Assembly: GCA_947172415.1 (NCBI GenBank)
Contig: OX359197.1
Coordinates: 5,581,673 to 5,645,672, forward strand
DNA: 64,000 bases
Source: Chondrosia reniformis
Lineage: Eukaryota; Porifera; Demospongiae; Chondrillida; Chondrillidae
Direction: 5' to 3'
Positions 25,801 to 43,800 of the stretch are shown here, in pieces. The notes beneath the pieces are model-generated. The model was not told where the DNA came from and ran no database searches. It worked only from the letters and a program-made list of their open reading frames with translations. Numbering within the stretch: position 1 is the first letter of the stretch; each line of letters starts with the position of its first letter. Position numbers and translations under genes: made by a program.

Positions 25801-28800
25801 AATTAGTTATAAACACAATTTTATTATAGATAATTGCAATGTGCATAAACGTATATGCATTAATTACATATTTGTATACTAAAATATGTATCATATATAT
25901 GATTTCTAACCTTGGTCAGCCATGAGATCTGTTGGAGTAATAGTCACACTTTTAAGAACAATATCAGTACTAACAGTCTCTTGAATGTTAAGAATCTGTA
26001 TGAAAATGTTATCTTCATCTATTTCAGGAATGTGATTCTTGATATCAATATCAAAGAAGAGGTAGTAGTTTGAAGTTGGCAAGTCAAAAGGCATAAAGAC
26101 CTCTATGTTTTGATAGTAACTGTCATTGATACCAAGATTTCTTTTCCGCAGTACAGTTTTCAACTTAATGTCAAAGGGATCTAGTATAGCATCTTGGCTT
26201 AATACAATGGTTTCATACCATTCACCAATGGTAGCACCTTCTCCCACATTTATTACTTCATAAGAGAGATTAGCAGGTTGACCACCTGTCAATGAGAGTA
26301 CTTCGGCTGGCAGAATGGCTTTAAGATCAGGAAGTGGACCATCTTCAACTAAGATTGACCTATCTGTCTGAATTATACCTTTAATAGCAGTAGTAATATC
26401 ACCATTTATGTCTGGAAGAATGGTTAAATACATATGCTGGTTGATACCATATGGAAAGGAGATGTTTTCCATAACAAGGGAGGTTTCATCGGCGGACAAA
26501 GTCATTGTATGTAACACCTGACTGAGAAATATCCCATTTTGTCTAATATCTGATTCTTTAGATGTAACAAATGGATACAAATAGAGAGCATCAATCCAAG
26601 AAGATAATGGGAGGCTTACTTTTCCAATGTTGGAAATATCATATTTGAATGTTAAAACCTGTCCAGCAGTTATTACTACTGGTAAATCTTCCTTGTCAAT
26701 ATCTATTTTTAGGGTTGCTATAAAAGGTGGATCTACTGCAACAGCTTCTTGGCTGACACCTATATTGTTATTTTCACCGTTGATTTCTATTATATCATTT
26801 GATGCATCAGAAGTAATTACAACCCAATAATTTCCTGACTCAACAGAGAGTGGAAGTAGGAATGACTTTGTAAAGCTATATATCTGAAATGATTCCAATT
26901 GTCCCTCATTTACGATATGACCTAGTCTAATGGCATCATTAAGATTAAATGGCAGCCTTGTTGCAATGTGAATTTGATCATTCCAGACCTCTAGAACACT
27001 CATACCATTTCCTTGATTGATTATGGAAGCTGAAACTTGCAAAATTCTTTCTTTGGTAGATGTGAATGTTGGTTTAGCATATAGGTCTATTACAGTCAGA
27101 TCTGGTGATGGTGGAAATACCAGAGTTAGTGAAACACTACCTATATTGTTGCCATGGTTCCTTTCAGATTGAATTACCCTGTAGTTGTCTGATCTAACAT
27201 GGACAAAATACATACCAAATAATCCTTCCGGAATTTTAACAGTTTTAGTTAGATTGTAACCATTTGAAGGTTCCAAATTCAGAGATATTGGAATATCTGC
27301 AAGTTTGTCAGCTTCATTTGAAATATTCATGGATGGAGACAGAAGAATTGAATCAACCCAAGTAATTTGATCAAGTGTAAGATTTCCTCTATTAGCTACC
27401 TCCCAATAAATTGTTATCTCATCACCAGAGATTAATTCCCTTCTATTAGTCAAAATGCGAATGTCATTCACAGTTAAATCAATATATAATGGAAGGATAT
27501 GAAGTGGTCCAAATGTTTTCACATTATTTAGCTCATTGTTCTCCTTGATACGATTTGTTGCATCTACTAATATATGGAAAAATACATCCCCTGATATAGG
27601 AATCTTGGTTTCAACTTTAAAATGTTCAAAAAAACTGCCACTTTCAAGGTTTTGGGACATAACTATAGATTCTAAATTTATGGCCTTGTCCACCTCAAAA
27701 TCAAAACTAGATGATAAATAGATTTCTTCAATCCAAGGTGCATCAATAGTTTTTCCAGCCCCAACATTAGAAATAGTGTAATTAACAATAAGGAAGGTCC
27801 CTGCAGTTGTTACAATTACCTGCCTACTTGAGTTAGAAACAATAAGATCTGATAGCTTTTTGGCAATCTGCAGGACTCTAGAAATATTATTGTTATCCTC
27901 AAAAGTATATTCAAATACCCGATTGGAGTAGTCAGTTTGAAGAGATAAAATATGTGGCCCACTATTGAAATTAGTAGGAATTACAAATGCATGGTCTTTA
28001 GTGTATGATTCTCCAGGTTGAAGCTGCTGGTAAATATTAAACTGACCAATCACCGTTGTGCCTAATTTCTAAGAAAACATACAAAGATACGTACGTATGT
28101 AGAGGAAACCAAGTGAACAGTTAATATAGTGTAGTCCACACACACACATATATATACGTATATATATAAAATATCAATGTCTGAAAATTAATGCAATGTA
28201 TATATCTGCAAACCATGGCTTTTTTAATCAATGACTGATGAATACAGTATGCACTATTACTTAAAACTCACAATCCTGTCTATCCAGTACCTCTCAAATG
28301 GAGCACCACCTCCTTTGTTTGTGACGATATAATTGACTTTTAGTGTGTCCCCTGTGCAGTATTCTGTACTATCTACTTGCAAGTCAGTGACCAATAGATC
28401 TGGTGGTGGTGATAATATCACTTTAGTTGAAAGCTGGCAGTATAAATTGATAAATACATAAACAGATTTACAAATATAATACAATTATATGTAAATAAGG
28501 TTTTATTAACCTCCAGATTGTTGTCATTCTCACTGATATGTTCATAAACTGTATTATACACATCAGCAATCACAATTACTGTATAATTTCCAAATATGGC
28601 TTCTGGTACAGTAATGGTAATAACTTCAGAATATTCAGCATCAACAGGTAATAATCCTTTATGCATTTTGACCTGGAGCAAAGTGTCACTGGAATCTGCA
28701 TAGGGGAAATATATATTTAGATATCTGTATCTTTGAGATGGTTTATTTTTAGTCTTTTGAGTGTCTAGAAACACAGATCAACCAACAGTAGCTGAAGAAG

Positions 28801-31800
28801 ACTCCCATGGTCAAAATGTCCAGTTCTCAAGAAACAAACAGTAACTGTGTCTCAAGATGCTCAAAGATTATATAGATGAACCATCTCATGATAAATATAT
28901 ATTATTTGTCAATGAATGCTTGACAATACATGCCAAGTTAGTATTTCTTTTTTTAATGAGAACATATGTTCAAGCTTAAATCTTACCAAATTCATTATCC
29001 TCTGACCAATAGATGCCATCATACCATGTAGTAGTAGGCATTATTCCAAAGCCTATATTTGTCACTGTCCATCTAACAGAAAATCTTTCTCCTAAATTGA
29101 GCAATAAAAGAACTATAAATAGCAGGAAAACGCTAAGTATGCTTTTGGACTTACCTGAAAAGGTAGAAGCTGGTACACTACCATCACTTACAACTAAGTT
29201 AGGTGGTGGGGTTAGTTTTACCTCTAGGACTTTGGAGGCAACCCTTACGTTATTGCTGCGATCAATATCTGATAACTATATACACATATGAAATAGATGA
29301 CCAGAACTGATAAAGGCTTACATATCTATATATACGTATATAGATTTAGAGGATTATACTTTGTAGCAGTATTAAAACGAATATATATAGCCCTTACCCT
29401 TTGGGTAGCATCTGTTTGTACAAACACATTATAAAATCCAATGTCTTCATCCTTCAACTGCACAAAAGCTGTAGAAACATATCCATCTTGAGGATCAACA
29501 AATCTATTTTGTCTTATAAAGTTAAGAAATCTGCTTCTTGAAAAGTCAGGTTCCCTGCCTATGTAAACAGCATCATACCAAATTGCTGATCCAGTGCTCA
29601 AGTTACCTATGTTAGTCACAGTCCAAGCAAGTTCAAAGGTTCGTCCAGAAAATACAAAATCAGGAATTGATACACTATTCACCAAAAAATCTAAATAAGG
29701 TCTGGTGGTGAATCCCCATATGGGACTAGGTATCTTTTCACCATCTTCCAAAATGTACTGAATTTGCCAAAGGATGTTAGTTCCAGGTGGAAAGTTAACT
29801 GGTGGGTAAAATACACGATTGGATACTATGGCCATTGGCACAGATGACTGATTTTCTTTGTATGACCATATATACACTTCATATTGAATAGCACCTGGGT
29901 ATTGAGGCCAACTGAGAGAGGAACGCAAGGGTACATTTATTTGCCCATTTTTGGGACTATCAGGTAGTTGTTGATCTAGCACTCTGATTGTTTGCTGAAA
30001 TGTTGCTTGGTTTCCACAATCGTCTGAAGCAAACCATGTGCGGGTAAATGTAAAGCCACATCTGTTGACATCAGTTGAGTCCATAAATGTGAGTTCTGTA
30101 GGTCTACCACAAGGATGCAAAACTATAATGCTTTTTGCTAAATCTGAAGCACTCTCAATGGCATCTTCAATACTTCCGCAAGGGATGGAAATGTGTTTTG
30201 GTGCACTAATGGCTGGAGGTATTGGACTAAAAAATGTTATTGATTGTGTCAAAGTAGCTGTGTTGCCAGCTTTATCAGATGCTATCCATACACGATTCAA
30301 TGTGCAACCATGTGTAGGTTGATCCATGTAGCTAATCAATGGATCTGGATCACTGTTGTCTACAACTTCAGGAATACCAGTTCTATTTGGACTAAAGTCT
30401 TCTCCACAGGCAATACTTGCATTGTTCAATGGCATTATTGAAGGTGAAATAGTATCTGTATATATAATAAGTTATTAGAGAATTGAATAAATGCTTGGAG
30501 GTCTGTAAAATATTTTATCAGGAAAGGTCACTAATAAAATGTAGAATTCCCAGAAACACCTGTCTTGCCCAGTATAGCAAGGATGAAAATTGGTATATAT
30601 GAACACTGCATCAATATCCTTGCATGTGCATCCAAAACTCAGTAGGTATGATCTATATGATATAAAAAGTCTACGAAACTCATGTTTGCCCATTCAGTAT
30701 TAGTTATCTTGACATTCATGTATTGGAAAGAGGCTTATACATACATGTACGTACACAGTTACTTACGTATATACGTATAACAATCAATTGTAATAATATC
30801 ACATATTATATATAATATATATTATATTGTTACGTATGTAAACCTACCAATTATCCAATCATATTCAAGAGGAGTTCCAACATTACCCACCAAATCAGTG
30901 GCTATTACTGATATTGAATATTGCAAACCATTACACTGCAAGAAAAAGGGCAATTTGCTATAGTTTGCAAGTTTTTCAAACTACTGATTTACAGAACGTT
31001 TGCTAACATTTACACACAAGCTGGTTTGCATAAGGTTTGCAGAGCGTTTGTGTACTGTGGTTTTGTCACCAATTAATTCAGAAAGTCCTATATAAACTAT
31101 ACACAGAGGTGAAGCTTAGTGGAAGTGATAATGATATTCATTAACCAATTAAACGATTAAAATGGATTCTCAGGCTAGAGCAACGTTGTTAATGATTCCA
31201 GCACCAGCGCCTTTCAGTGGAACAGATATAGGCTAAATAAATCCAAAAGGTAAGATAAATAACTATACATCACTGTTAAAAGGCAAAAGTTGCCGTATTT
31301 TTATCATTTAGCAGCCTTAATTCCGTTTCACTTATGCTTAGTTAGTAATTTCAATATTTACCCCCTTTGAGTTGAAAGGCATAGAAAGGTTCATCTTAGT
31401 TGTTGCTTGGCAGCCATTACAGTGAATGTTAAACGCAAAAGTTTTACCAAACTATTGTATGTTCGTATGTATGTTTATAGATGTGATTGATCTTATATCT
31501 TTCATGGGTATTCCCGTTTTTATATAGATAGTTTAAAGTCGCATATGATAATATCTTAGAAGGAATCGCCTGACTCCTCAGTGGTCTTTGCTAAGGTAAG
31601 AAGCAGATTAAGTACCTTAAGTATACGTAGTACTTACATGGAACGGAATGTCCTAGGCCTGTATACAATTAAGATTTTAGCTACTCTGATAGAGAGAACA
31701 GCAGAAGTATAGTCATTAGAAAATATAAACAGTCGATTATGCAGTGTTTATAATTAACTTATGTACAAACTGTACAATCATCAACATATAAAAAAGTGCG

Positions 31801-34800
31801 TATATTCAATTAATGTTAGTCCTATATCCTGATAGCTATACGTAATTAATTATTAGTGTACAGGATTATGGGTGTATTGACTTGTTTATTTTTATGTTCT
31901 TACCTATACAACATACATGTTTATAACTTAGAGAATTAACTATTTTAATTATACCAACATGGGGAATTCGAAAGGATGTCATTATGCTTACTTCTTATTG
32001 TGTATAAATGTAGCATAAAAGTCACTGGATTGAAAGGTTTATGTATAATAAGGATGATAATTAACAACTGTACACATGCAGTTATATAGTGTTAAGAGAA
32101 ATTTACAAACTATTCAGTTCTATTGTCTTTACTTTGAGCACCTAAGAGGACCATCCTCCCTGCCCTGCATCCTCCCTCCAAAATCTTATTCCTGTAAAAC
32201 TCCCTAATTGCTAACTTAGATGTATTATATTGTTTTCTTTTTGTGTCTAATTCTATTCCTAATTCCTCTACCTTATCCCTATATTGCCTAATTTCATGTA
32301 CTGCCCTATCTTCTAGATTTTTCAATTCACTTACATGCCTATTAACTATGTACTGCTCTGGTAAGCTAAGCCTATCATTAATTACATTTTCTGCAGCTAA
32401 TGCATGCTTATGAAACTCGGTATCTATTTTACTAGACTTTGGCTGTATGTCAGTGTGTCCTATCTCTTCTCTACCTTTCCCTACTGTATCGTATACTTTA
32501 CATTTCTTAATCCAATCTGAAGTACGCTGAAGATTTGTTTCTCTAAAGTAGGCATCCCATTTCTCATGGTCATAGGGTAGGTCATCTGGGTCCTCTTCAG
32601 GTCTCACTAATGTCAATTTCGGTCTTTCTCCGTTGTCTTCCAATTCATGGTTCTCGGTAAAACCTTGTTGCTGAGCATCCTGTGGTTTCTTCTTTTCAGA
32701 ATTTGGGGGTGTAAGCAGATCAGCCGGCACAAGCATGCTAGGGTTAGGATCATATTCAAAAACTCTTCTGGTTCTTTCAAGATTCAGCTTCCTTCTAACA
32801 CGTTGTTTTCTCCTTTGTCTTATTTTCTTCTTCCAGAGGTCTTCTGATGTTTTTGGATAATGGTAATTTGCCATGCTGTAAAATTTTGTATGGAGTAATT
32901 AGTAATACCAGTACCAGTACACATGCATTCATGACACATGGACACCAATGTATGCAGATAGGGTTGTTGTAGGACTAGTACTATAGGCTATACAACTCCA
33001 AACATGTAAGCTTGCCAGTCCAATGGTTTATTTTCAATTAAGCTATATATTAAGTTTGTTTTTAGGTGATTAGATTGGTACAGCCCGAAGCAGGCTCCCC
33101 ATGTTCTAAGCTTGATTATTAGATTGGTACAGCCCGAAGCAGGCTCCCCATGTTCTAAGATTGATTATTAGATTGGTACAGCCCGAAGCAGGCTCCCCAT
33201 GTTCTAAGATTGATTTTTAGATTGGTACAGCCCGAAGCAGGCTCCCCATGTTCTAAGCTTGATTATTAGATTGGTACAGCCCGAAGCAGGCTCCCCATGT
33301 TCTAAGATTGATTTTTAGATTGGTACAGCCCGAAGCAGGCTCCCCATGTTCTAAGCTTGATTATTAGATTGGTACAGCCCGAAGCAGGCTCCCCATGTTC
33401 TAAGATTGATTATTAGATTGATACAGCCCGAAGCAGGTTCCCCATGTTCTAAGATTGATTTTTAGATTGGTACAGCCCGAAGCAGGCTCCCCATGTTCTA
33501 AGCTTGATTATTAGATTGGTACAGCCTAGTCCAAAGTTATTTTTTGGTTAGTAGATTGGTACAGCCCGAAACAGGCTCCCCATGTTCTAAGTTTGATTAT
33601 TAGATTGGTACAGCCCGAAGCAGGCTCCCCATGTTCTAAGCTTGATTATTAGATTGGTACAGCCCGAAGCAGGCTCCCCATGTTCTAAGCTTGATTATTA
33701 GATTGGTACAGCCCGAAGCAGGCTCCCCATGTTCTAAGATTGATTATTAGATTGGTACAGCCCGAAGCAGGCTCCCCATGTTCTAAGATTGATTTTTAGA
33801 TTGGTACAGCCCGAAGCAGGCTCCCCATGTTCTAAGCTTGATTATTAGATTGGTACAGCCTGAAGTAGGCTCCCCATGTCCAAAGTTATTTTTTGGTTAG
33901 TAGATTGGTACAGCCCGAAACAGGCTCCCCATGTTCTAAGTTTGATTATTAGATTGGTACAGCCCGAAGCAGGCTCCCCATGTTCTAAGTTGGATTATTA
34001 GATTGGTACAGCCCGAAGCAGGCTCCCCATGTTCTAAGATTGATTTTTAGATTGGTACAGCCCGAAGCAGGCTCCCCATGTTCTAAGCTTGATCATTAGA
34101 TTGGTACAGCCTGAAGCAGGCTCCCCATGGCCATGTTCTAAGATTGATTATTAGATTGGTACAGCCCGAAGCAGGCTCTCCACATTCTTATAGTCATTGT
34201 TTTATTATTTTAATGGCAAACAGGTACAATGTACATAATTGACAGGTCCAACCTGAAACATTATTATAATTGCCAACTAATGTTTCATGTGTGCATTTAT
34301 ATATCTTTAAGAGTCAAACTGTTAACTTACTTCTTGATATACAGGTAAACATCAAGTTAATACAGGAACAGAACAACAGAACATTAACTTTAACCTTTCC
34401 TCTATATATAACTCATTAAAAATGATATCCCTCCAAAATGTCATGCCCTTGTCATGTGATTTACTATTTATAATTTATCATTGACAAAAATGTACAAATA
34501 TGTTTATATTTAGAGCTTGAGACTCTATATATATACTACTACTTTTTATGGAACATCTAAAATAGGAAATACATTCTGAGCATGCTCAAAGGCACATGGT
34601 ATATAGCTTCTTGCATAACTGTGCACTTTCGTGCATACTTTTAATCCATGCATACAATCCATTGTTATATATATATATATATATACACATACTAGGTGAT
34701 CATGATCACCATGGCCAATTGCAAATAACATTAATAAATTAAAATTATTACATGTCGTACATATATATTATAATACTACATAATACCATAAATATTATAT

Positions 34801-37800
34801 ACGATTTAAATTATGTATGTACATGTACATCTGGATCTACATTATAGAACCACAGACAGCTGTATAAGCTGTTTCGAGCTTCTTGGCTCTCATCAGTGTG
34901 GTGTACTGTGAGCTCAGTAAAGCAATAGCCACACTGCTATTGTGTGCTGCTTGCATATGTGCAAGCAGCACACATGTACAGTATTGCATGGCTTATATAC
35001 CTTTTCATCACAGCTCAGTAAAAAAAATATACAAGTACAGTGGCCATTGAATATTCATGACCAATCCAACTATAGATTCTTTCAAAATTGAGGCAATAGT
35101 AAAATTTAGCATTCATAAAATACCTAGAATGTGACTGGGCTTATGACTAATACATTATCAAGACCCCTTCTGCTTCCAAAGTCAATGTCAGTTTGAAGCC
35201 ACACAACCCTTGAGGAAATCTCCTGAATAGGAACAAAGGAAGAGTAAATTTCTAAAGAGGTACTCCAAATTTCTGAAGGCTTTCCCAGCCACCACTTAAA
35301 TTCATCAGCAATATAGAAATTTACATTAGCAAACCATAAGTGTTGTACTGGCGTTTCATGCAATGATACTTTAACTGTTACCTTTACAAAATAATTTATT
35401 CTACATAGTTTAACAGTGGTACCTATATTTGCAAGCACATGGCTATTTGCATGGTACCTGCCTTCAAAAGAGCCAACAACACAACCATTGATTTTTAATG
35501 CCTTACATTTTGAGCACAAAATTCCTACATCAACTTGATCCTGATGCAAAACCTCAATTATACTGGCTTTCATCCTGTCATCAAGTGAAGATTCAAGTAC
35601 TGGAGGCAAAGGCATAACTAACCTTCCTTCTATGTCGTCAGTGCCAACAGGTTTGTAGCAAGCAGAAAGAGAACCTCTTAAACTTCCAGGTTTTAATAGA
35701 ACACTGAATTCTTGTGACAAAGAAGAATTAACAGATATATCTAGCATGCAAAATTTTCTCATCAATTGGACTTCTATGCTTCTATTATTTGTTGGATAAC
35801 CACCAAGTAAGCCATTTAATCGTTCAAATGCAAACAGCCAAAAGCTATAGATAGGCCCAAAATCATTTATACATTCCAGTAGATGGAGATGCAAATGCAT
35901 ATTTGGTGTCAAAAAGGCAGTTGAGTACAAGGACTCGGCTTCTTTACAAAATTTGGTCAACCAGTCATGAGCCTCAGCAGCTTTGCTAAGGTTAATTTTC
36001 CTAGAGCAAAGGATATGACATGCTTTAACAAAATTTAACCAGCATCTAAAATCTCGTAAAGGTAAGATTGGTTTTAAACATGCAAGAGAATACAACAAAG
36101 TCCAATTTTTCCATTGATCTGCTGTAAAGGAAGAGAAACCAGATGCCATTTTTAGGGGTATTCTTCCAACATCAGAGGGACCTACAAAACTATCAACCTT
36201 TTCCTGCATTAATTCCATATCATTCGGTTTTATTTTCCCTGTTTCCTTCCAAACATTTAGCATATGCTTAGCAGTACCCAAGAGCAAATTATGCATTGGG
36301 TCTATAATGACCATTCTATTAGGGTCAAAATAAGGCAATTCAAATAGTACTGAGTACTTCACACCATATTGGTGTTCAAGCTTTTTTTGTTCAGCCCTAT
36401 TACAGCAATTTTTCCATTTATCAGCATAGGACAAAAGGAGTTTACGATCCCTTTTTAGCCAATTATCAGAATCAAATCCCCCATAATTTGGCTTATGTAT
36501 GTCAGCTATATATGGAAAGGTTTTTAAGCACTTTAGACACCCCCTGTAGGCATTAAAATTCACAAAACCTGAAACTTTTCTAGCAGCTGGTGAATCACAG
36601 GCTACGCACAAGAGAGCAGCTCTAGCAAAAATTTGCCCTGAATAGGTTTTCAATTCAATACCATCCTTCCAAAATACCAGCAATTCTTCAATTAATGGTT
36701 GTAAGATAAAATTAAGTGTAGCAGGTTCCTTAGGCCCAGGTATAATACCCACCAGTAAAATATTTTCTGGTTTGAATCTTTCCTCCCTAGGCAGGTTTTG
36801 AAGGGAAAGGTATATGGCACCAACTGAATAAGGGGTATGTCCAAATGGTTGGAAAAAGTCTATGTTCAACATGAAAGCAAAATTTTGACTATTGCTCAAA
36901 AAGGGAAGTGATTTGACCTCTTGAAATTTCTTCCATATGTTACCATCATAAAAATCATTAAGGTCATCACAATGGGTAATGTTAATGTTAGAACGCCATT
37001 TCTGACATTTTTCAAAATTACCCTGTCTCATAAGAATTGTTTCTAAAGACGATTTAATCTTTTTATAACAAAATATATTCTTGGGATAAAAGATAGTTTG
37101 ACCAGCAGATGTCCTATAGGGCTTAAACAGTGGATAATTACATGGTCTACGTTTTCCAGAGTGGGGATGGTTAGGAAAGGCAACATACTTGCAAAATATT
37201 TGGTGCTTAGCAAAAGATTTATCTACTCCAGATATGAGTTCCTGAAATTTATAGATTGATGCACACCTTTTACAATATATATACTTTTCAAAGTCATCTT
37301 TAAGGGCAACTAATTTCTTTGTCTGGTAGTATGTTTTAGGAAGCTTCCTAATTAAAGCAGACATGGCTTGGTTTGGGAACAATTTTAAGACAGCTTCAAA
37401 AAACGTAACAATGAACAGCAGAATAAGCACTAAAGTGGCATTAGATAGCTTTGCAATAGTTTGAAAGCCCAATAAAAAATAAGCATAAAGAAAAAGTAAC
37501 TTCCCTTCATCATCTTTGATTTCTATATTTTCCATTCTTTCAGAAAAGTCTTCAATCATATTCTGTTCTTCTTCACCTTCAGACACAACATTAACTTCGT
37601 CTTCATCCTCAGATTCACTAGGGAATTCTTCCTCTGAGTCACACTGAAAAAGCAATGAAAATTTTAATCATAAGAATAGAAGACAAGACAGAATTCAAAT
37701 TATATAAATTATTTACTTCGTGTAGTTCCTGGATATTTGCTTTTTCTCTAGTCTGTTCTGATATTTCAGTTGCACAATCCTGCAATTAAATATTAAAACT

Positions 37801-40800: not shown

Positions 40801-43800
40801 TGTTTGGCTTTGCTTGTAAAGCATAGCAGTTTCCATGCTTGCAAACTAGTTCTTTTCTTGCAGTGTTAATAAGATTTGAAGCATAATAATTATCTGAACA
40901 TGCTACATAAGATGGTTCGCTCCCCTGAGTGTAGACGCTGCAAACATATGAACACCTTATTTCATTTAAACATCGATATCTAAAATGCCATTCATTTATT
41001 CTTGAATCTTTTGGAGGAACAGAAGTAAACAACACACGCGGAGGTTCCAGATCTATTAAAAATGAGAAAGATAATGTTAAATATATATATTGCTTGGCCA
41101 ATATACGTATATTCTATAGATCATCACAAGCCTATTAAGATAATAACGTATATATAAGCCATGCACACTGACATTTGGTATGGGAAGATCTGAGACTTTA
41201 GACTTATTATAGAAGGAATGTCATATAAGGACTAACCAACAATCCAGCTATGGCTAACTGATGGTGCTACATTGCCTGCAGTGTCTGACCCTTGGATGAA
41301 AAGTATATGTAGCCCATGGCTCATGTTAACTAGAGTAATATTGTTGCCATTACAATCAATTTTGCTCAGACCAACTGGGGACTGAAGTGAACAGACTGAA
41401 GATGACTCTTCATTGTACTTCCATACTATTCTGGTGTTGTTGTTTGAAATAGTTGGAGCATTTACAAAAGTAAGTACAGGTGGTGTGATATCCACTATAT
41501 GGGAAGTATGAAATTAAAAATGAAACCAATAAAATTAATGTACATGATATTAATTAAGAGGCTAATCCAATTGCAACTTCTTAACACAACAAAGGAATTT
41601 AAGGTAATAAGAAACTAACATATAGTCACAGTCCAAATTGATGGATTTCTCATTGCTTCTGATTCAACACCACAAAAAGCAAAACCTTCAACAACCCCTA
41701 CACAAAATTGAACAAAGAAAAACCTAATATCCTATTTAGACAAGATTTAGCTCCTTAAAACAAGATAATAGCCTATTTAGCTCCTTAAAACAAGATAATA
41801 GCCTATTTATATAACTCATTAAAACAAGATAATAGCCTATTTAGCTCCTTAAAACAAGATAATAGCCTATTTAGCTCCTTAAAACAAGATAATAGCCTAT
41901 TTAGCTCCTTAAAACAAGATAATAGCCTCCTTAAAACAAGATAATAGCCTATTTAGCTCCTTAAAACAAGATAATAGCCTCCTTAAAACAAGATAATAGC
42001 CTATTTAGCTCCTTAAAACAAGATAATAGCCTATTTTAGCTCCTTAAAACAAGATAATAGCCTCCTTAAAACAAGATAATAGCCTATTTAGCTCCTTAAA
42101 ACAAGATAATAGCCTCCTTAAAACAAGATAATAGCCTATTTAGCTCCTTAAAACAAGATAATAGCCTATTTTAGCTCCTTAGATAATAAGTGCATGCTCA
42201 TGCCTGGATCTAATATGATATAATAGGACTCCTTCTCGACAAAAGGAAAAATCCTATTCAGTTGAAGAGTGTGTCCCTTTGTTTCTGGAGAATTAATCAC
42301 AGAGGTTGCTGATTCTGAAGCATCAACTTTTAGCACTTCAGTGCCATTCTTCAAAAGTGCTCGAATGAAGCGGTTTCTTGTCGATTTTCGAAACTAATCA
42401 GTATAAGAACATACATATTCTTGCATACATCTAAAATATGCATATATTTAGTACATTTATACAGACCTCTTGGTCAAAGGCAATGGTCCATATACTATGG
42501 TTTGATAGAATTTCACCAACAGGAAAGGGAGAACTCTGTATCACACGAGGAGCCTTTACTATATAAAATAATTAAATCCATGTACAGTACATTAATATTA
42601 TATATATTATAAGGAATTGAATGAAACTCTATAACAGACACATAGCCAACTAGATGTATATATATGTATATAATTCAGGGATGGTATGAAGATAATGTTC
42701 CTCAAGAGCATTTAAAAACAACTGCAGACTATATACGTACGTATCTGCAAAATCTATATATATTCGTACGTATGTAATCTACATATGCACACACATCAAG
42801 ATATATACCTAATATATCTGAGTGACCTAGTCAAATGTTTTGAGTGAATCTATAGGTTTATAATATAATAGTAGTGTATGGATACATACCTACCTCCAAC
42901 ACCAAAAGTTAAGCACCTTTCTTCTGTTAATAAACTACATATAGTAAATTTAAGCATTTAAACACACACAGAAATATACATACATACATATATACATGCA
43001 CAAACACACCACTACATATAGTGGTGTGTGTGCATGTGTACATTATAAATTTATATTTTGGTGTTGAGGTTCAAGAAGAATGCATTATATATATATGTTC
43101 ATGTATTAATTCAAAAAAATACAAACACAATTATAATAATATTATTTAAAAAGAAAATGTTATCAAAAGTAGAGATATTTAGATAGTCTTTGTAGTAAAC
43201 ATTTAAAATAATGTCATTATGTAAAAGGATATTGATCATTGATCAAAACATACAGTACATAATTGAACATACAATTATTAAAAGATCTACAGAGATTCAA
43301 TGTACATAATTATACATAGTATCGTACCCAGTACTTTCAATAGCTTGGAAGCAAAAAAGATGAATGCCAAACTGGTTAATATCAGGAGTCCAGGTTATGT
43401 TTATTTGCCATTCTTTATTATTCAGCTGTTGAATGTCAGATTTCCTCAATCCAGATGGTGATACAGTTTTAATTTCCACAATGCTATATAATATTTCAAG
43501 TGAAATATATATGTACATATACGTATGTATAACAGCAAATTTGAGACATTGAGATAATTTATAAGGGATGCTAGACTATATATATGGCATAACAATCATA
43601 TTTACACACCTACTAGTACACACATCTCTTACAATCCAATGTGTTTAATGCAGTGCTATTCACTTGGTTCACTTAATTCTATATGAATCTATTAAAAATC
43701 ACCTTATTCCAGTTATATCTCCTTCAACTCTAGCAATTATTGGCTCATGAAATGTGGAATTGGAAGGAATTGCCACACAGGATCCATCCTGCCTTGTGAT

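Follow-up and report, generated by a model that had tools for sequence, protein, structure and literature searches.

A candidate hammerhead ribozyme between the two genes of a CACTA transposon clade in the sponge Chondrosia reniformis

In a 64,000-nucleotide stretch of the Chondrosia reniformis genome (hereafter the window), we found a complete hammerhead ribozyme motif inside a CACTA DNA transposon, on the strand of the transposase gene. We put at a little over one half (about 0.56) the probability that a CACTA (En/Spm) clade has here a real type I hammerhead maintained by selection, which, judging from sequence, would cut the element's transcript between its genes. Most explanations offered so far for genomic hammerheads in animals treat them as tools of mobile elements that are RNA-based. 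Given that a cut-and-paste element has no RNA replication intermediate, a selected hammerhead needs another use here, either transcript control or processing. In the literature searched, which lay mostly outside subscription journals and included PMC2576457, PMC8490949, PMC7761336, PMC6431247, PMC6155905, PMC7229834, and PMC12477314, we found no report of a cut-and-paste transposon, CACTA or other, that carries a hammerhead; pattern and protein scans of viral contigs likewise found nothing.

The ribozyme occupies 34850–34901 on the minus strand and is of type I, with an open stem I. Read directly on that strand, it consists of CCACA (34901–34897), CTGATGA (34896–34890), GAGCCAAGAAGCTC (GAGC and GCTC around a CAAGAA loop, 34889–34876), GAAA (34875–34872), CAGCTTATACAGCTG (CAGCT and AGCTG around TATAC, 34871–34857), TC (34856–34855), and TGTGG (34854–34850). 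All bases of the hammerhead core (CUGAUGA ... GAAA ... UH) are present and pairing is full, with 5 bp in stem I, 4 bp in stem II, and 5 bp plus A15.1-U16.1 in stem III. From its place in the hammerhead consensus, cleavage is predicted after C17 (GUC/UGUGG, an NUH site), between 34855 and 34854. The original prediction of a complete minus-strand hammerhead, with whole core and three paired stems, was therefore borne out, and the distance from the transposase stop codon (35126–35124) on the same strand, predicted at about 220 bp, measured 222 nt. Alignment and pair counts extend the conserved unit to 34838–34915 (minus strand), adding a weak outer stem I and a periphery (5′ GTRCA, 3′ TTC) that, together with the CAAGAA loop, appears compatible with a loop 1–loop 2 tertiary contact. 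A covariance model, R1, gave the window ribozyme 97.2 bits; R1 was built from 18 family copies including this one, and their high scores are by construction. By the same model the window holds one hammerhead, on which ground we rejected the production of circular RNA from two ribozymes.

Scores against public models were lower. HH9 and HH10 are names of domesticated vertebrate hammerheads, the rodent case being located in a 3′-UTR. HH9 was the best Rfam match by E-value (26.7 bits, E 0.0033, below the cut-off of 52), and RAGATH-1 reached 27.3 bits (E 0.36, below 56.3). The window copy was not among the RF00163 matches listed for the genome, which are the best-scored candidates, and no RF00163 match was reported at 30–40 kb of the window. 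In the Rfam covariance check proposed for it, the window copy stayed below the gathering score, a threshold of the database and not a criterion of mechanism.

The host element spans 40865 to 30934 (9932 bp) on the minus strand and has CACTG terminal inverted repeats (TIRs), CACTGCAAGAAAA at 40853–40865 (5′) and TTTTCTTGCAGTG at 30934–30946 (3′), so that TIR comparison places CACTGCAAGAAAA at both element ends. It is flanked by a TAA target site duplication (40866–40868 on the 5′ side, 30931–30933 on the 3′ side). A second copy, L035, is flanked by ATA/ATA, which is ambiguous there because the flank is ATA-repetitive. Subterminal TTTGCA-type words cluster at both ends, with counts of 6 and 7 in the outermost 300 bp and of 0–4 per 300 bp elsewhere. 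The transposase ORF is intact (35124–37667, minus strand; 847 aa from stop to stop, stop codon included) and belongs to Transposase_21/tnp2 (Pfam PF02992, 3.9e-18); a 3′-splice-site-like CTTTTTCAG lies near the start of this ORF or exon (AG at 37645–37644). A comparison with public protein data, in which 7997 candidates were scored, gave 704 relatives of this transposase, some of them from lancelet, acorn worm, sponge, oyster, and loach records. CACTA/En-Spm elements are recognized by a tnp2-type transposase, CACTR ends (TIRs starting CACTA or CACTG), a 3-bp target site duplication, subterminal repeats, and a second gene, and the window element resembles them in each of these. The CACTA assignment stands on independent rechecking, and with it the earlier claim that the hammerhead lies within such an element, on the strand of its transposase. 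The six ORFs of at least 120 aa in 28–44 kb carried Transposase_21, DUF1258, CARDB, DUF7507, and HYR-like domains. No reverse transcriptase was detected in these six (Pfam, E up to 0.01), nor did they include the reverse transcriptase or GIY-YIG domain that would adjoin the ribozyme of a Penelope-like element. As a separate observation, the ORFs bearing the CARDB and HYR-like domains lie at 25906–30471 (minus strand), and the CARDB protein has a 98% relative in public data.

Downstream of the ribozyme are a 49-bp tandem repeat of 22.7 units (33069–34182, minus strand) and then ORF2 (32113–32898, minus strand), which is open for 262 codons and probably starts at the ATG at 32874 (MANYHYPKT...). 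Because ORF2 follows on the same strand, the ribozyme sits between two genes. ORF2 received no name in the Pfam search; its sole relative found in public data is a predicted 254-aa protein, 97% identical, whose length fits a start at this ATG. It is preceded by TACTAAT...TTTTACAG, which resembles a 3′ splice site (AG at 32877–32876). The presumptive 3′-UTR placement was incomplete, since an ORF2 with a 3′-splice-site-like leader follows. For an ORF2 transcript, the ribozyme may be intronic, and the splice-like sequences lead us to infer a one-promoter, alternatively spliced layout.

Copies across the genome place the ribozyme in the transposon. Our survey covers one genome, from which more diverged copies may escape. 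A DNA search with the 3′ region of the element retrieved close copies and isolated ribozyme matches, and a pattern of core and stem II had 22 genome matches, the reversed pattern none. Eighteen of the 22 constitute the CACTA ribozyme family; the four left out include L062, which scored 28.6 bits with R1 and by eye lacks stem I. PF02992 lay 1.6–2.1 kb upstream on the same strand in 11 of the 18 copies, where random placement would give about 0.1% per copy, and three copies (L040, L044, L047) have transposase remnants upstream of the ribozyme. Ribozyme and transposase strands agreed in all 11 copies with an upstream domain within 5 kb, L037 having an inverted second fragment as well. Within 5 kb downstream, ORF2 was present on the same strand in 12 of 18 copies and a 3′ TIR match in 10 of 18. 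In two of the copies, L049 and L051, the similarity to L041 takes in the ribozyme and its surroundings (174 nt at 76% and 104 nt at 76%, respectively), and neither transposase nor ORF2 was found there in the 10 kb fetched. The original prediction was open to refutation by copies lacking the motif, with the ribozyme in a separate nested repeat. The outcome favored membership in the element, since the ribozyme stands at the same place in other copies and also in diverged subfamilies with unalignable flanks. The exception is L048, a decayed element with its ribozyme opposite in strand to the transposase and ORF2 remnants. The ribozyme belongs to the transposon and is not a nested insert.

Sequence comparison between subfamilies suggests that the ribozyme is maintained. 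Between the window element (A) and L041, the transposases share 62% amino acid identity and fourfold sites are randomized (34% over 173 sites), and the 3′ regions near the ribozyme can be aligned at the ribozyme only. Identity of the window ribozyme to those of L041, L046, L047, and L040 was 92, 89, 85, and 88%, respectively, while the corresponding values were 32, 33, 35, and 57% just upstream and 47, 41, 44, and 35% just downstream. Such near-constancy of the ribozyme amid unrecognizable flanks suggests a use in the cutting of the transposon's own transcript. Counting a ribozyme as complete if it has the core, stems I and II, and no fewer than four of five stem III pairs, all five copies with an intact ORF (A, L035, L041–L043) had one, as did 4 of the 13 others (L040, L044, L047, L049); the Fisher p value of 0.029 overstates independence, because the five intact copies form only two near-identical groups. 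The ribozymes of L046 and L050 are damaged. L047 is nearer to L041 (84% at the DNA level) than its protein match to A suggests, and we therefore count about four to five independent ribozyme lineages: A, L041 with L047, L046, L040, and L050. The 3′ part of the element, from 34623 to at least 32286 in the window, is 90–95% identical between A and the L041–L043 type, which shows that modular exchange between subfamilies has taken place. Local conversion could accordingly have homogenized the ribozyme, despite the unalignable flanks on both sides; a separate tiny conversion of the ribozyme would, on these alignments, need to recur in several lineages.

The same figures bear on a rival view of the ribozyme as a passenger, an unused remnant of a retrozyme or Penelope-like retroelement once inserted in a CACTA ancestor. 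At least 65 RF00163 matches were listed (the best-scored candidates), 51 of them over the cut-off, and the matches listed include four same-strand pairs 352–355 nt apart (e.g., C3:1599837/1600191 and C6:3921765/3922119), a spacing as expected of retrozyme-like repeats and as in animal retrozymes. One of the other hammerheads, L002, shares GTACCACA-CTGATGA...GAAACAGCTGTCTGTGGTTC with the CACTA copies and departs from them by a 2-nt gap and in stem II and the loop of stem III; common ancestry is likely given the shared stem I and periphery. Nevertheless, a passenger would not be expected to stay 85–92% identical while its flanks and synonymous sites were randomized. Every copy with an intact ORF keeps the ribozyme complete, and no reverse transcriptase turned up in the six ORFs scanned around it. 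Stem III also differs from the retroelement-like type and can close in one copy, whereas a loop-less stem III, CAGCTG, was present in all eight other genome hammerheads inspected (L001–L008). We therefore regard the passenger explanation as quite improbable. The suggestion that the motif marks a nested, unrecognized retroelement fails as a description of the present state, with the motif at the same place in other copies, and is likely right as to descent from a retroelement-type hammerhead. From these eight examples, the CACTA type looks like a ribozyme of the L002 kind with stem III opened into a hairpin, and because that stem closes as a hairpin, a single copy could cut.

Comparison with known systems sharpens this contrast. 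Animal hammerheads are placed in retrozymes, satellites, Penelope-like elements, Terminons, and SINE-like repeats, and domesticated ones in introns and an mRNA, according to PMC6155905, PMC7761336, PMC7229834, PMC6431247, and PMC8490949. In class and type, the CACTA ribozyme agrees with the hammerheads that animal non-LTR retrozymes and satellites carry, which are of type I (PMC7229834 and PMC7761336), and the retrozyme-like L002 of the same genome is near-identical to it in stem I, core, and 3′ periphery. Unlike these, the CACTA ribozyme is single rather than tandem in the window, sits in a DNA transposon beside a transposase gene, and has a stem III closed as a hairpin; tandem hammerheads a few hundred bp apart, as in a retrozyme, were not found in the 64-kb window, which has one hammerhead. 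Penelope-like elements and Terminons (PMC6155905, PMC7761336, and PMC6431247) offer the parallel of an autonomous mobile element that carries a ribozyme kept across families. They are retroelements, however, and their ribozymes are minimal, often lack helix III, and may act as dimers, whereas the CACTA element is cut-and-paste and its ribozyme is complete as a single copy. The domesticated intronic and mRNA hammerheads of vertebrates, for which roles in polyadenylation or mRNA biogenesis have been proposed (PMC6155905), are likewise single, conserved, and within a gene transcript, but they reside in host genes rather than in a transposon, and the CACTA score is half the HH9 cut-off. Domesticated ribozymes, in mRNAs and in introns, might also derive from elements such as the one described here.

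Conservation could also act at the DNA level, on a binding site for transposase or a host factor or on an exchange hotspot, with the hammerhead shape arising by chance. Pairing was assessed on a structure hand-drawn from the same sequences (16 distinct rows): 84.6% of cells pair, and both partners had changed in seven pairs, where shuffles gave 3.3 and 3 of 500 were as high; the covariation score was reached by 0 of 500. Five of these seven pairs belong to the weak outer stem I, and stems II and III have one each. The core stems hardly vary across the family, so RNA-level covariation is thin there, as selection on DNA would allow; an 11-nt motif upstream is conserved too, and predicted folds of longer window stretches often lack stem I. 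Against this, the conserved bases are those needed for hammerhead catalysis, the outer stem shows compensatory changes, and changes of stem III loop and length in L041, L047, and L049 preserve pairing. In addition, the ribozyme lies on the transposase strand in all 11 copies with the domain within 5 kb. On balance, we judge DNA-level selection distinctly unlikely and retain the reading of an RNA that cuts.

Whether the RNA would always fold for cutting is less straightforward. For the isolated motif (52 and 54 nt), the predicted minimum free energy (MFE) structure is the exact hammerhead, with mean stem I pair probabilities of 0.93 and 0.96. Stems II and III were retained in all seven window stretches folded, while stem I was absent from the MFE structure in four of the five longer ones (78, 151, 300, and 474 nt; P 0.00–0.17) and present in that of a 189-nt stretch (P about 0.7). 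In longer context, L035, L040, and L049 prefer a non-hammerhead structure by 3.4–5.5 kcal/mol, and L041 and L044 an alternative fold by 0.2–0.6 kcal/mol; these predictions take no account of tertiary contacts. Longer folds of the window copy often lose stem I because the upstream motif just mentioned, CTGAGCTCACA (34907–34917, minus strand), can pair with the ribozyme strands in competing folds. Of the 18 copies, 16 have this motif at a distance of 5–136 nt upstream of their ribozyme, 14 of them exactly and 2 with a single change. In the 189-nt window fold, it pairs instead with an upstream GAGCTGTGA motif, which L041 and L047 have as well and L040 and L046 have in a form that differs by about one base. 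Given these alternative pairings, the cut may be switchable or conditional, and covariation gave no backing for the CTGAGCTCACA switch pairing. A broader scenario, in which a DNA transposon acquired a retroelement-type hammerhead, turned it from dimer-dependent to single-copy, and uses it as a conditional cutter between two genes, is tentative, and we think it unlikely as a whole. Also a short way upstream of the ribozyme is a long hairpin (34928–34987; 28-nt arms 79% complementary, inner 15 bp perfect), which is present in the subfamily of the window element and absent from L040 and L041.

If the ribozyme cuts the element's transcript, as we favor, transcription from the 5′ end of the element would pass the transposase gene, the ribozyme, the 49-bp repeat, and ORF2 in that order, and self-cleavage past the transposase stop codon would detach the repeat, the splice-acceptor-like site, and ORF2 downstream. 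The transposase RNA released on the 5′ side would end in a 2′,3′-cyclic phosphate and lack a poly(A) tail, so that poor translation or a short life is to be expected of it, and the RNA on the 3′ side would start with a 5′-OH. By cutting gene-to-gene read-through transcripts, the ribozyme would most likely serve to hold transposase output down or in balance with ORF2. Ribozyme activity, its probably co-transcriptional timing, and its effect on expression are what we infer from the arrangement. Alternatively, the ribozyme might mainly serve ORF2, by freeing the ORF2 part of a long transcript or by acting inside an intron that ends at the ORF2 acceptor, a role of the kind proposed for intronic hammerheads in amniotes. 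The acceptor-like TTTTACAG/TTTTCAG ahead of ORF2 and the same-strand ORF2 downstream in 12 of 18 copies (with only about 70 nt between the ribozyme and the beginning of the ORF2 match in L050) are in line with this, while a downstream RNA with a 5′-OH would have no cap.

Transposase loci without the ribozyme bear on the same alternative. None of ten other PF02992 loci (L052–L061, about seven near-copy groups, 2.2 kb fetched each) had a hammerhead; their transposases share 36–45% amino acid identity with that of the window. Likewise, a search of the 5 kb downstream on the transposase strand, by pattern with at most 2 mismatches, gave no family hammerhead for 44 of 55 PF02992 matches, and we rejected the hammerhead as a general CACTA feature in this genome. 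At three loci without the family ribozyme (C14:2501819, C7:3114848, and C8:2001647), a relative of ORF2 lies on the opposite strand, where no splitting of a transcript would be needed; in the two of these read as L052 and L061, it is tail-to-tail with the transposase. L059 has an opposite-strand ORF and L053 and L056 a small same-strand ORF, each without detectable similarity to ORF2, and five of the ten loci have no ORF of 110 aa besides the transposase in the 2.2 kb fetched. Since most other ribozyme-less loci have no recognizable ORF2 in the 2.2 kb fetched, and the few cases include two near copies, the association of the ribozyme with a same-strand ORF2 is a lead rather than a result, and a role in the service of ORF2 seems to us unlikely.

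The G12A change occurs in five copies (L036–L039 and L050), and natural copies with and without the G12 base offer a comparison for testing the biological role of a genomic hammerhead. Two of these copies, L038 and L039, are arranged as a large inverted pair pointing outward in opposite directions (G000:C7:4176286-4191442), and both of their ribozymes carry G12A.
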